NCBI RefSeq assembly: GCF_004363295.1
Contig: NZ_SNYQ01000004.1
Location: forward strand, 1 to 64,000
DNA: 64,000 bases
Origin: Mesocricetibacter intestinalis
GTDB taxonomy: Bacteria; Pseudomonadota; Gammaproteobacteria; Enterobacterales; Pasteurellaceae
Reading direction: 5' to 3'
The position numbers and the translations under genes are program-made. Shown piece by piece: positions 22,447-57,927 of the stretch. Each line of letters begins with the position of its first letter. Positions within the stretch are counted from its first letter, which is position 1. The notes beneath the pieces are model-generated. The model did not search any database. It was given only the letters and a program-made list of their open reading frames with translations, and was not told the DNA's origin.

Positions 22447-25400
22447 TTAAAATTCAAATTGGTATAAAAGATCCACCGCCTGATTCACTCCGGTAACGGA
22501 CTGCAGATACAACTGCGGAAATAATTTATAACGTACGGTAAATTCCGCCAGCCCGTCAAATAAGCCCACCCCGTATTTTACCTGTAAGCGCGGGGTAATA
22601 TTACCGCTGACAACCACCTTAGAGCTATCTCCCACGCCGGCGGTACCCAGATTCAGATCCTGAATACCGAAAGCCTGTCCGATACCGCCCACGGCCTTAC
22701 CGCTTTTCGCCAATCCCATTCCCAGCAATGCGGCACCGATAGAGCCGCCGGAACCGGCTTCGCCGCTGTTTTCCAAGGAGCGCCCGGTCAGAATATAGGA
22801 TAGCGCCTGATCCTGCGGCATTCCCGGTTCGGAGAATACGGTAACCTCCGGCGCCTCCGCCACACCTATTACCTTCACACCGGCCACTACCGAAGTGTCT
22901 TCCATGGCTTCAGGGTTACGAATCGCTTCAATATTCAGCATAGGCTGCGAAGGCAGACCGGAAAAACTGATTTGCCCTTTACGGATAATCAGATCCTGAC
23001 CGAAGGAAGCATAACGACCGTTCTTCAAATCGATTTGACCGAACAAGCCTAAATCCCCGTTATCCTGGCGCACTGAAAGCAAACCCTGCAGATGCGTATT
23101 CAAACCGTAGGCATTCAGCGTAACATCATTACCGATATGGATTTTTAAATCGGATTTAATCGCCATCCCTGAGGATTGCGGTAATTTCTGCGGAACCGCA
23201 CTTCTTCCCCGATTAGCCTCCAGAATCACTTCATCGCTGCTGACCGATACCGCACTTTCCGGCAGATTATCAATTTCCAATCTTGCCCAAGGAATCTCCG
23301 CCAAACCGGAAAGTTCCAGCAGTTTCGGCGAAGCTTTCATTTCTACGTTCGGGCTGATTTTAAGCTTTCCGATAGAAGGAATATCCAGTCTGAACTGATC
23401 GGCACGGGCATGAACCCGGGTATTCCAGTTCTCTACGTCCTTCCAGTTTGCTTCACCGCTAAGTTCCAGACGACTGTCGTCATTACGCAGTTCTCCGCGC
23501 AAAGAGGAGCTGTTACCCTGAAATTGCAGGGTCAGGCTGCTGTTTTTCAACTCAAAGGGCATAGACTGAATGGATGCGCCGAGGGAAGCGATATCTACAG
23601 AACCCTTGAGTAAAGGTTTATTCAGATCACCGCCCAGCGTCAACGCGGAACGGATTTCGCCGGAAACGGACTCCCCGCTTCTGAGCAACTGATTGAGTAA
23701 CGACAAATTCAGCCGTTCAATTTTAAAGGTACCACCTAATTTACGCCCGCCGGCCAGATCCTGCAGCTTCAAATCGGCGCTGATATTTCCGTTATTGCGA
23801 ATCCGGATATCGGATTTTACGCCCAGATTGTTATCGGCAAGCTGAGTATTAAGATTGAGTTCGGCAACCTCGAATCTGAAGGTTCGATAATCGACTTTCT
23901 GCGCAAAACCGAGATTGCTGCCCTGAACCTGCATATCAAAACGCAGCGGCTTATCGCTAAACCATTGAACCTTACCTTTACTTTGTAAACGGCCTTTTAG
24001 CGTTTCCTGTTCGATAAGCTTATTTACCAGCGCCAAATCCGCCTTTTTAATTTCAAAGGGAACACTGCCCTCCAAACCGGCGTTAAAGGACTGCGGGAAG
24101 CAAAATTCGACATCGGGATTCGTCCAACAATGGGCGGATACTTCGGCGTTAATCGCTTTGTGGTCGTAATTGATACTAACCTCATTGTTTTTAAAACTTC
24201 CGGCGGGAGAAAAAATCTCCGTTTGGCTTAACTTACCTTTCCAGCGCTGACTCGCACGATCAAAACTGCCGTTTAAATCAAGGCGGGCGGCCACAGGTTC
24301 GCCCTCGGAACGCAAATGCAGTTCATGTTGCCCTTCATTTCCCTTTGCGCTCAATTTAGCGCTGTTCAGTCGGATATTTTCGCCATAATTCAGCGCCTCC
24401 AGAGCAATATCCAGATTACCCTGAATCTGCCCCGCCGAGCTGATATTCCCCTTTGCGGTAAAGGCATTCAGACGCAGATCTTGAAAACGAATATTCGTCC
24501 CCTTAAGATCAACGGCCAGATCCGGAGCGCTCAACTCTCCGTTCAGAGAAGCCTTACCGTACAAGGAAGCATTCAGGGTCGGTAGCAATCCTTGCAGATT
24601 CGGCGCATCCACATTTAGGTTAAAGGCGGATGCCCGTCCCAGCACACCGCCGGCACTGAGTTTATTATTGCCATAGTTCAGCACAAATTCGGGGACATTT
24701 AACAGGGTTTCGCTGCCGCTGCTGAGGGCGCCTTTCAGATTCAGGGGTTTACCGCTGACACTGCCCTGAATATCAATCAGCGGAAAATCCGCCTGCCATC
24801 TATTATTAGCCTGCATACCGGAAGAAATAATCCGACCTGACAGCAACGCCGGGAAATCCTTTACATAAGCGCTTAAATTCAGTTTGTTCAAATCTGCCTG
24901 CGCCTGCCAGCCTACGCCTTCCCGCCATTGCACCTCGCCTTTCAGATCAATACTGCCCTTCAGTGCATTAAGCCGGAGCTTTTCCAGCTCGGCACGATAA
25001 AGTTTTCCCGTTGCGGTTAAATCCAGCTGCGAAGGTGAAATCCCCATACCCTGCGCCTTGCCCTGCAAAGCAAGACGATAATCGATTAAATCGCCCTCAA
25101 TATCCAGTTTCAGATCATTGATTTTCAGGGGATCGACGGAATCGAAAGGATAACTGGCGCGTTCCACCCTAAGTTCGAGCTTTAACGGCATTTTCTCTTC
25201 GGCCAGCTTCACCTGCGCATTTAATTGCGCCTGCAAAGCACCCGTTATATGGAGCTTCAATTCGGTTTGTCGGCGTAATTGCCCGGCCAGATCCAGTTCA
25301 AGCCGGGTTGCCGGCAAGAGTAGTTCATCGGCATATTTCAGCTCCCGAATATCCGCATCAAGTCTGAATGCTAGCGGTGATTCGCTATCCAGCCGCCAAT

Positions 25401-35091: not shown

Positions 35092-36372
35092 ATGTTTAGA
35101 ACATTATTTCTGATGCTGGTGTTATTAGCCGGCTTGGTCGCCGGCCCCTATCTTGCGGGCAAACAGGGCTACGTATTAATTGATACCGGCTCCTATAAAA
35201 TTGAAATGGCAATTACCACATTGGTAATTCTGTTCGTAGCGGCAATGGCACTGGTTTATGCGGTCGAATGGATTGTAGTGCGTTTTTGTCGGTTAAGTAA
35301 CAATACCTATAGTTTTTTCTCGCGCAGAAAACGTAGCCGCGCTCAGAAACAAACATTGGAAGGTCTGATGCGAATGAACGAAGGAGATTATTCCAAAGCG
35401 GAAAAACTCATAGGTAAAAACGCCAAACATTCGGACAAACCAATCCTGAACTTTATTAAAGCGGCGGAAGCCGCACAGCAGCGCGGCGATGAATTCAGCG
35501 CCAACCGCTACCTTATCGAGGCCACCGAACTGGCCGGCAGCGATAATCTGTTGGTGGAACTGGCCAGAACCCGCATTTTATTACTGCAAAATAAATTACC
35601 TGCCGCACGCAGTTCCGTTGACAGCTTGCTGGAAATGGCAGCGAAAAATATCGAAGTGCTGAAACTGGCGGTAGAAATTTATTTAAAATCAAAAGCCTAT
35701 GCGGCACTGGATAAAATTCTGGACAATGTTGAACGTAGCGGTCTGTATTCCGGCAAAGAATTTCAGGCTCTGCAGCGCCAGGTTGAAGACGGGCTACAAG
35801 ATGAGGTGATGAATGAAGAAGGCGCCGACGGTCTGCTTAACTGGTGGGAAAATCAACCCCGTAAACGCCGTAACGACGCCTATGCTAAAGTCGGACTGAT
35901 CCGTCGTCTGATCGATTGTAACGATCATGAATCCGCCTACGAACTGGTACTTGAAACAATGAAAAAAGCGCCGGAAGAACAGGCGGTCAGCCAGGTACTG
36001 TTCGCACAGATTACTCGCTTGCAGCCTACCGACAGCAGCAAACTGGTAAAACTACTGGAAAAACGTGCCGCATCCGCTGCGGCGGACAGTCAATGCTGTA
36101 TTTACCGCGCACTGGGATACTTGTTTGTACGCGCCGACAATTTCAATAAGGCCAGTGAAGCCTTTAAAAAAGTTCTGCAAAATAAAGAACAATTATCTCC
36201 AAACGACGCTACCATGGCAGCCTATGTATTCGAACAGGTAAATGACCACGAAGCGGCGCAGCAAGTGCGGGAAGAAAGTCTACAGAAAGCGATGGAAATC
36301 AGCAAAGCGCCGTCGGAGGAAAAGGATACCGACCCGATTCAGCCCCTTGGCTTGGAAGATAAATCCAATTAA
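35092..36372 (+). CDS. hemY: HemY, TPR-containing inner-membrane protein
   Basis: A 426-residue protein with two N-terminal membrane segments (about 4-24 and 40-63) and helical TPR-like repeats (about 90-400), typical of the proteobacterial HemY family in hemCDXY operons. It is not the protoporphyrinogen oxidase that carries the same name in Bacillus. Exact role unknown. It starts 13 bp after hemX. Confidence 0.93.
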
Positions 36373-36393
36373 ACTTTGCTTAGCTATCTTATC

Positions 36394-36426
36394 AATACCG
36401 GTCTGCTTTATCAGGCCGGTATTTTT
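36394..36426 (+). terminator. Terminator of hemCDXY
   Basis: AATACCGGTCT and AGGCCGGTATT form an 11-bp stem with one G-U pair, followed by TTTTTT. Confidence 0.93.
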
Positions 36427-36531
36427 TGCCCGTTTTATTTAGAAAGGCAAATATTGCCCCCCTATCGAATTAAATTTTTGCGCGGGAAAAACCTTATTGT
36501 AGAGGCGCCATACCTCCCTATTGAGGAAAAC

Positions 36532-36591
36532 CCAATCCCCTTTAAAGCATAAAAGTGCGGTGGTTTTCAAGCGAGTTTTTTTGGCAAAAAA
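36532..36591 (+). repeat. Long uptake-sequence element, copy 1 of a 60-bp direct repeat
   Basis: It starts CCAATCCCCTTTA, contains the exact core AAGTGCGGT (36553-36561) and ends CGAGTTTTTTTGGCAAAAAA. It matches the copy at 36668-36727 at 57 of 60 positions. Confidence 0.9.
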
Positions 36592-36667
36592 GAAAGACGC
36601 TATATTAGCGCCGATTTATTTTTACCTCCGTTAGTTTGGAAGGCTATGCCGACATCCTTATTAAAAT

Positions 36668-36727
36668 CCAATCCCCTTTAAGGTATAAAAGTGCGGTGGT
36701 TTTTAAGCGAGTTTTTTTGGCAAAAAA
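36668..36727 (+). repeat. Long uptake-sequence element, copy 2 of a 60-bp direct repeat
   Basis: Same structure as copy 1, core at 36689-36697. Its final A-run is also the U-run of the hslU terminator on the opposite strand. Confidence 0.9.
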
Positions 36728-36758
36728 TATAGGGGCGTCGATATTAATCGGCGCCCCT
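36722..36758 (-). terminator. Terminator of hslVU
   Basis: AGGGGCGTCGAT (36731-36742) and ATCGGCGCCCCT (36747-36758) form a 12-bp stem with one G-U pair and a 4-nt loop; on the minus strand ATATTTTTTG follows. Confidence 0.93.
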
Positions 36759-36770
36759 GCTTTATTAAGA

Positions 36771-38102
36771 TCAGAGAATAAAGCGGCTTAAATCTTCATT
36801 CTCAACAACATCGCCCAAGGCTTTATTAACATAAGCCTCATCAATCAGAATTTTCTGACCGCTCATTTCACTGGCATCGAAAGAAATCTGATCCATCAGG
36901 CGTTCCATTACGGTATGTAAACGACGGGCGCCGATATTTTCGGTTTTTTCATTTACCCGGAAAGCCGCCTCGGCGATTTTGCCGATAGCCTGTTGGTTAA
37001 ATTCGATTTCTACCCCTTCCGTTGCCATCAGCGCCTTATATTGCTCGGTTAGCGAAGCGTGCGGTTCGGTTAGAATCCGTTTAAAATCTTCCGTACTCAG
37101 CGCGGACAATTCTACTCGGATCGGTAAACGTCCTTGCAGTTCAGGAATCAGATCCGAAGGGCGGGCCACCTGAAAGGCGCCGGAGGCGATAAATAAAATA
37201 TGGTCGGTTTTCACCATACCATGTTTAGTATTTACGGTAGAACCTTCCACCAGAGGCAGTAAATCGCGCTGCACGCCTTCGCGCGAAACATCGGCGCCGC
37301 TGTATTCGCCTTTTTTACAGATTTTATCAATCTCGTCGATAAATACGATACCGTTCTGCTCCACCGCATCAATGGCTTTTTGTTTCAGCTCCTCGGGATT
37401 GATCAGCTTCGCCGCTTCATCTTCAATCAGCGCCTTCAGCGCCTCTTTTACCTTCAGCTTGCGCCGTTTGGTCTGCCCACTGGAAAGATTCTGGAACATG
37501 GACTGTAACTGGTTGGTCATTTCTTCCATACCCGGCGGTGCCATAATCTCTACGCCCATGGATACGCCCGCAACATCGATTTCAATTTCTTTATCGTCAA
37601 GCTGACCTTCACGCAATTTTTTACGGAAAACCTGGCGGGTATGGCTCTGGCTGTCGCTTGATTCCGTCTGTCCCCACTGGTTTTTCGCCGGCGGTAACAA
37701 TGCGTCTAGAATCCGTTCCTCCGCCGCTTCTTCCGCACGGAAACGATTTTTTTCAATTTCATTCTGGCGAACCAGCTTCATAGCGCTATCGGTCAGATCA
37801 CGGATAATGGAATCCACTTCCTTGCCCACATAGCCCACTTCCGTAAACTTGGTGGCTTCCACTTTAATAAAGGGCGCATTGGCCAATTTGGCCAAACGAC
37901 GCGCAATCTCGGTTTTACCGACCCCGGTCGGGCCGATCATCAGAATATTTTTCGGCGTTACCTCATGACGTAAAGGTTCCTGCAACTGCATTCTTCTCCA
38001 GCGGTTTCTTAATGCAATGGCAACCGCTCTTTTCGCACCGGATTGGCCGATAATATGCCGATCCAGTTCGGAAACAATTTCGCGAGGGGTCATTTCTGAC
38101 AT
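36771..38102 (-). CDS. hslU: HslU, ATPase subunit of the HslUV protease
   Basis: A 443-residue AAA+ unfoldase that feeds substrates to HslV. Walker [10 protein letters not shown] is at about 54-62, Walker B VFIDEID at about 252-258, with the inserted I domain between (about 110-240) and the C-terminal EDLSRFIL tail that docks on HslV. Opening [20 protein letters not shown] is typical. It lies 62 bp after hslV on the same strand, under a heat-shock promoter. Confidence 0.98.
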
Positions 38103-48161: not shown

Positions 48162-48185
48162 TCTCAATCCCGCCGGAATAAAATA

Positions 48186-48212
48186 GGACGCCGCAATGGC
48201 GTCCGATTTATT
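48186..48212 (+). terminator. Terminator of hcr
   Basis: GGACGCC and GGCGTCC form a 7-bp stem with a 5-nt loop, followed by GATTTATTTTT. The same palindrome with a different loop (GGACGCC-TGCAT-GGCGTCC) occurs at 57839-57857. Confidence 0.8.
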
Positions 48213-48279
48213 TTTACCGCCCTTGTATTTCGGGGGACAAACATGGCCCCGAATTAATATTCAATTCTGTTAACAACTC

Positions 48280-48312
48280 AAAAGTGCGGTTATTTTCAAC
48301 CGAGTTTTTTCG
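48280..48312 (+). repeat. Long-form DNA uptake sequence
   Basis: AAAAGTGCGGTTATTTTCAA (core 48282-48290) followed by CCGAGTTTTTTCG. It lies in the 283-bp gap before the patatin-like gene; the remainder of the gap shows only the hcr terminator and GC-rich imperfect palindromes (CGGGGG...GGCCCCG, about 48231-48251). Confidence 0.85.
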
Positions 48313-48444
48313 CCTACCAATAATCTATTCCGCATGAATACGGGAGCCGTACCGAGGTGCAAAAATATTGTGTATAATTCTGCGCAGCTTAAAATTTTTT
48401 GTTCGCGGCAATAATAGGGGCGTGAACAGAAGCAGGAGAAAACA

Positions 48445-57730: not shown

Positions 57731-57927
57731 GGGCGCTGGCACGGCGTTCCTTCCGTTCGAATCAAATATATTTCGTTCCCCAAAAAACTTGCTCAAAAAT
57801 CACCGCACTTTTATACCCCAGCGGATTGGATTGATCTCGGACGCCTGCATGGCGTCCCTACAGAGAGGCTCTTAATTTTCCGGAAAGAAGTACGAATCTA
57901 TTGCCGGGACGCCGTGCTTTGCGCCCC
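57731..57927. repeat. Intergenic inverted repeat enclosing a long uptake sequence
   Basis: GGGCGCTGGCACGGCGTTCC (57731-57750) is matched in inverted form by 57906-57927 (GGGACGCCGTGC...GCGCCCC; about 17 of 20). Between them lie a long-form uptake sequence and a perfect GGACGCC-TGCAT-GGCGTCC hairpin (57839-57857). No gene is present in the 252-bp gap. It resembles a small dispersed palindromic element. Confidence 0.6.
57779..57819 (-). repeat. Long-form DNA uptake sequence
   Basis: The complement reads GGGGTATAAAAGTGCGGTGA (core 57802-57810), an AT block, then GCAAGTTTTTTGGGG, closely like the repeats at 36.5-36.7 kb including the flanking AATCCAATCC on its left. Confidence 0.88.

Follow-up and report, generated by a model that had tools for sequence, protein, structure and literature searches.

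In the window, the 64,000-nt stretch of the Mesocricetibacter intestinalis genome analysed here, the convergent genes hemY and hslU are separated by a gap of 398 bases which, on direct reading, contains only short open reading frames (Table 1). Both hslU, whose stop codon lies at 36771, and hslV were named by NCBIfam models above cut-off, and the match of the hemY product to the HemY equivalog NF008017 (349.3) stayed below the cut-off of that model (608). Two copies of one block lie in the gap, both on the plus strand and therefore in direct orientation, with 136 nt from start to start. Each copy consists of a leader, the core AAGTGCGGT of a Hin-type uptake sequence (USS), and the A-run tail GGCAAAAAA. 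The initial annotation had described a pair of sequences 57/60 identical and 136 bp apart, and direct reading together with a repeat search confirmed it, as 36532-36591 and 36668-36727 differ only at the sites 36546, 36548 and 36568. On the 3' side of the core, both copies carry GGTTTT(C/T)AAGCGAGTTTTTTT, which corresponds to the two AT-rich segments of the USS, while the leader of about 24 nt common to both copies lies outside the USS motif. The AT-rich tail, which had been described as a part of the uptake-sequence element, is indeed present in the copies, but the GGCAAAAAATAT tail also falls outside the motif.

Table 1. Coordinates of the features at the hemY-hslU gap and of the sites compared with it (window positions unless a contig is given).
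Feature	Position	Strand	Evidence or remark
hemY, convergent neighbour	35092..36372	+	TIGR00540, 369.5 bits (cut-off 142)
Separate predicted hemY terminator hairpin	36394..36423	+	-17.9 kcal/mol, z -6.3; not listed by the simple scan
Copy 1 of the block (leader, USS, A-run tail)	36527..36596	+	64/70 identical to copy 2
Hin-type USS core AAGTGCGGT, copy 1	36553..36561	+	Core count
Second, weaker terminator-like site	36586..36612	-	7-bp stem, then TTTCTTTTTT from the copy 1 tail
Inter-copy spacer, 66 nt	36597..36662	none	Direct reading
Copy 2 of the block	36663..36732	+	Direct reading and repeat search
Hin-type USS core AAGTGCGGT, copy 2	36689..36697	+	Core count
Predicted intrinsic hslU terminator	36722..36758	-	Hairpin 36758-36731, then T-run ATATTTTTT
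hslU, convergent neighbour	36771..38102	-	TIGR00390, 766 bits (cut-off 362.45)
Partly similar USS-bearing gene end	48175..48322	+	Hairpin, GATTTATTTTTACC, about 60 nt, USS
Partly similar USS site	57767..57832	-	82% over about 66 nt, E 4e-11 in own genome
GGACGCC/GGCGTCC hairpins, window	48186-48204, 57839-57857
GGACGCC/GGCGTCC hairpins, own genome	C2:77597-77615, C2:84223-84241, C2:277262-277280, C3:113880-113898, C1:518928-518946, C5:35149-35167

Predicted hairpins and T-runs connect the block with the end of hslU, in support of the link to the hslU terminator that had been proposed. The first hairpin after the hslU stop codon on the hslU strand (36731-36758) has a stem of 7+4 bp with one mismatch and a folding energy of -18.8 kcal/mol (z -4.0), and none of 200 shuffles was as stable. 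This GC-rich hairpin is directly followed by the T-run ATATTTTTT, the arrangement of a predicted intrinsic terminator, and this T-run corresponds, on the opposite strand, to the end of copy 2 with its A-run tail, so the suggestion that copy 2 supplies the U-run of the hslU terminator was borne out. A hairpin had been claimed after each copy, and this also holds, the one after copy 1 (36596-36612) being weaker, with -12.7 kcal/mol over 36578-36625 and a z of -3.9. Because T-run hairpins follow both copies, two terminator-like sites stand one after the other on the hslU strand, with a USS behind each. A simple terminator scan of 36300-36850 listed three sites versus 1.1 expected from shuffles, namely one on the hslU strand, at copy 1, and two on the plus strand, 36730-36759 (the strong palindrome, with the tail CTTTATTAAG) and 36598-36610; as both hairpins are thereby listed on the plus strand too, they could act in both directions. 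The same scan listed neither the strong hairpin on the hslU strand nor that of hemY, and for the former its rule of unbroken pairs, which excludes a mismatch, is presumably the reason.

USSs near the end of hslU are common among relatives, while a direct pair is rare. In a sample of 464 kb, made up of the window and a further 400 kb of this genome, drawn as 20 pieces of 20 kb each, 134 exact USS cores were counted, and 14 adjacent pairs lie within 300 bp of each other, 12 of them opposed and 2 direct. The hslU copies are one of the two direct pairs; the other, 54 bp apart, lies at 23195-23257 of the window. For the comparison with relatives, 30 hslU loci were used, that is, one named locus and 29 non-own loci (1 of them outside the family) from an earlier search of 61 genomes, which matched 40 genomes and included no genome of the same genus. 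An exact Hin or Apl core occurs within 300 nt downstream of hslU in 14 of these 30 loci, and an opposed Hin pair stands at the hslU end in 7, with a direct pair in none of the 30. Moreover, hemY faces hslU in three of the loci (L030, L043 and L052), two of which have opposed pairs. As separate observations, a hairpin, a T-run and a USS follow each other in the same layout as at hslU at two further sites (L006, around 1760, and L007, around 1779), which look like 5S rRNA gene ends. As well, USS cores lie in near-identical tandem units at about 2490-2640 of L004, where AAG TGC GGT would read Lys-Cys-Gly, and repeat-rich coding sequence may create USS cores.

The initial annotation had proposed a 60-bp uptake-sequence element with homologues, a claim left unsupported by the searches, since, among the candidates scored, neither the own genome nor any of 139 other family genomes yielded a further full copy. 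When a 244-bp block was compared with the own genome (2.21 Mb, 18 contigs), no other full copy appeared among the best 40 of 187 candidates; these gave at least 29 matches, comprising the block itself, the site at 57767-57832 and 27 others, which mostly cover 30-40 nt around the USS. With the best 5 candidates considered per genome, matches at E <= 1e-8 were obtained in 3 of 140 family genomes, namely the own genome, G030 and G154, and the full block was absent at this threshold from the 139 other family genomes. The matching sites in G030 and G154 are USS cores with no leader, and the one in G030 has GGTATA-like letters before the core and a hairpin with ATATTTTTT nearby. The leader CCAATCCCCTTTA, with at most one mismatch, occurs at 8 sites of the own genome, and an exact USS core follows it only in the two copies. 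At one of these leader sites (C2:249245), TTGTGCGGT stands at the same spacing with 7 of 9 core letters, and it was considered as a relative of the block; its 18-20 matches in 52 positions beyond the leader are below the 99% point of random window stretches (22/52) and it lies inside a 465-codon open frame, and for these reasons it was taken as chance. Searches of the own genome by the leader, by leader-plus-USS patterns, by DNA similarity and by a sequence model of the upstream part located the full unit nowhere else, so that several homologous copies at unrelated loci, as in a dispersed repeat, were not seen there. An exact pattern search of IMG/VR gave no hit, a plasmid search gave no match, and Rfam at E up to 1 returned four matches, all below gathering scores. 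The annotation had set its element against a recent tandem duplication limited to this strain, with no other homologues of the unit; one half of that alternative, the lack of another full copy, was found among the candidates scored in the genome and its relatives, whereas the 5-9% divergence between the copies argues against the word "recent".

REP-type palindromes were also considered in the surroundings of the block. A GTAGGGACGCC-type palindrome stands before the site at 57.8 kb and a look-alike with two mismatches before copy 1, and two palindromes of this type were found in the window versus 0.26 expected. A hairpin of the form GGACGCC-loop-GGCGTCC occurs 8 times in the own genome versus 0 for the backward control, and several of these, in the contexts read (all except C5:35149), lie at gene ends with T-rich sequence after them. 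The same hairpin was detected in 12 of 24 other family genomes and in 0 of 16 other genomes searched, and in two relatives, L118 (G009) and L129 (G018), it forms inverted doublets with a spacing of about 55-59 nt, which resemble those of REP elements. One to four matches to a Y1 tyrosine transposase were obtained in each of the four relatives searched (G001, G002, G009 and G018), and a search of the own genome with PF01797 (Y1 transposase) gave no match. Where a REP/RAYT system would show a Y1 transposase and many palindromes, the own genome has at most 8 palindromes, none inside the copies. REP activity was tried as the source of the pair and probably did not make it, because neither copy contains the palindrome.

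The origin of the pair can be judged from how far the identity extends beyond the USS motif. The Hin-type USS is strongly over-represented (26 cores in the window versus 0.32 expected), and in the 132 sites of the sample that have full flanks, the information of the motif spans about -2 to +28 from the core start. USS tails are thus alike genome-wide, which is what an independent origin of the two USSs would call upon, the likeness then coming only from the extended motif and from terminator composition. When -26 to +43 without the core (61 positions) was compared over all 8646 pairs of these sites, the two copies matched at 55 of 61 off-core positions, against a mean of 19.27 (sd 4.45) and 40 for the next best pair, and both their upstream (23/26) and downstream (32/35) matches were the highest of all pairs. 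As the leader also lies outside the motif, an independent origin is extremely improbable. This outlying off-core identity indicates that the copies descend from one segment, and common descent is the only good reading; the view of the annotation that the unit was copied rather than independently selected, and that the identity is longer than the extended uptake motif, is upheld, since motif information stops at about +28. Probably, a terminator-plus-USS block in the hemY-hslU gap was locally duplicated long ago, which resulted in two terminator-like sites in series and an unusual direct USS pair. The duplicated segment of about 65-70 bp would have comprised the leader, the USS downstream of it and the A-run, which serves as the T-run of the predicted hslU-strand terminator, and the event was probably a single chance duplication by slippage or short-range recombination, not a transposition, with a divergence of 5-9% since then. 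No clear second copy of the 66-nt spacer was found. Beyond the 70 nt, the anchored extension was reached by 19 of 400 shuffles upstream and by 11 of 400 downstream, these shuffles keeping dinucleotides exactly, while the score of an unanchored local alignment between the two hairpin regions was reached by 116 of 1000 shuffles, which, like those for the spacer, are a simple approximation. Since a tandem duplication would repeat the spacer, the pair requires either a second event that removed one spacer or the copying of a patch. A longer duplication extending upstream of copy 1 was also tried: the spacer resembles the hemY terminator region (reached by 4 of 1000 shuffles), and the upstream model matches weakly at 36492-36550 (E 0.25) and 36417-36474 (E 1.46), but it was not built on because many comparisons had been made. 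The sharp borders of identity on both sides and the spacer without a clear repeat also fit gene conversion or template switching, in which two older, independent USSs would have been homogenised over about 65 bp, seeded on the USS, perhaps during natural transformation. The opposed pairs at the hslU ends of 7 of 30 relatives mean that two USSs may have been there first, and in its account of neisserial DUSs, Treangen et al. 2008 (PMC2397512) attributes many recent ones to recombination over point mutation. In those relatives, however, the cores are opposed, whereas here they are direct. Moreover, USS pairs within 21 kb are no more alike than others (with copy 1 left out, means of 19.25 for near and 19.21 for far pairs; a difference this large arose in 149 of 300 permutations), so no general local copying process is visible, and gene conversion at this locus is regarded as unlikely.

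Two further sites of the window bear on whether the pair belongs to a low-copy dispersed element of hairpin, spacer, leader and USS, with relatives at 48.2 and 57.8 kb and two members now side by side at hslU. The site at 48.2 kb, located after a gene assigned to NADH oxidoreductase family NF007964, aligns over about 150 nt with 36586-36732, which covers the last part of copy 1, the spacer and copy 2. The aligned parts are the hairpin, the 16 identical nt CCGATTTATTTTTACC and a USS of the same orientation, which in both places is nearly equally far from these 16 nt. Its upstream part scored 57, the top of 8635 pairs, but other pairs came close, with 53 for the two copies themselves and 52, 49 and 49 for unrelated sites, which in two cases have an opposed USS in common. 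Without the USS, the 48.2-kb site scored 57, the next site reaching 47 and reversed controls 46 and 53, and a stricter scoring gave 35 versus 32 for the next site and 30-33 for controls. The 19 nt shared with the 48.2-kb site have BLAST E values of 0.06-0.15 in the sample, and the 14-mer GATTTATTTTTACC, with at most one mismatch, occurs at 9 genome sites versus 5 for the backward pattern. A sequence model built from the upstream part of the 48.2-kb site and of its counterpart at hslU gave 11 matches at E <= 10 in the whole genome (68 of 68 candidates scored), of which only those two were full length, without a third. Of the nine weaker matches, two are those mentioned above upstream of copy 1 and six coincide with hairpins at gene ends whose stems resemble GGACGCC/GGCGTCC; a USS core occurs within 340 nt in 2 of the 5 weaker sites read. 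These alignments suggest that 48175-48322 might be a distant relative of the spacer plus copy 2. The site at 57.8 kb shares AATCCAATCC and GGTATA before the core with copy 2, and when the alignment was extended upstream from the anchor, 2 of 400 shuffles did as well for copy 1 and 0 of 400 for copy 2; much of its identity is the USS motif, and it lies outside the 14 best upstream pairs. Both sites are partly similar to the block, with weak evidence for a relation, and given also the missing Y1 transposase match in the own genome, a dispersed element is quite unlikely. A broader reading, in which USS-bearing blocks with terminator parts are copied as patches seeded on the USS, the hslU pair being a younger case and the 48.2- and 57.8-kb sites older ones, appears improbable as well; if it were true, copying instead of point mutation would be the source of some USSs.

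Under the favoured local duplication, the consequences for hslU would be modest. As a predicted terminator, the block should end hslU transcripts; transcription would stop mainly at the first site, with read-through caught at the second, and the doubling would probably give a tighter hslU end at most. In other species, the Hin motif is known to bind the uptake machinery. By analogy, each copy, as a USS, should bind this machinery and may work as an uptake signal, while the doubling itself would have little or no effect on uptake. In the results of Mora et al. 2020 (PMC7811141) that concern close pairs, two USSs within 100 bp gave no detectable rise in uptake, and influenzae uptake maps suggest little extra uptake from such pairs. 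The hslU pair is like these in having two USSs near each other, but the count given there covers distances up to 100 bp, with examples at 69 and 230 bp, and the spacing here is 136 bp.

In the open-licence literature, at the level of titles and abstracts, no description of such a duplicated block was found, and its parts can be compared with known systems. The Hin-type USS, as characterized in the motif description of PMC1626085 (2006), has the core AAGTGCGGT and two downstream AT-rich segments, the same as here and in the 132 sites. Unlike plain Hin-type USSs, the two sites at hslU have a leader of about 24 nt and the GGCAAAAAA tail in common and form a direct pair. According to the protein alignments presented in PMC1626085, substitution, rather than the insertion of a replicating element, gave rise to the USSs of coding sequence; a USS gained with its flanks by copying would be a small exception in non-coding DNA, and because it is one locus in one genome, that picture is unchanged. 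USSs in terminators are already well known from the cases treated by Kingsford et al. 2007 (PMC1852404), and the hslU site shares with those the tail-to-tail gene end and the hairpin-linked USS. In the type they describe, the hairpin is typically formed by two opposed USSs, whereas at hslU both cores are on the plus strand, a GC-rich palindrome distinct from the USSs forms the stem, and the T-run is provided by the A-run that follows the USS. A direct USS pair with a shared leader is unusual here, given 2 direct against 12 opposed pairs, but it is no new type of feature.
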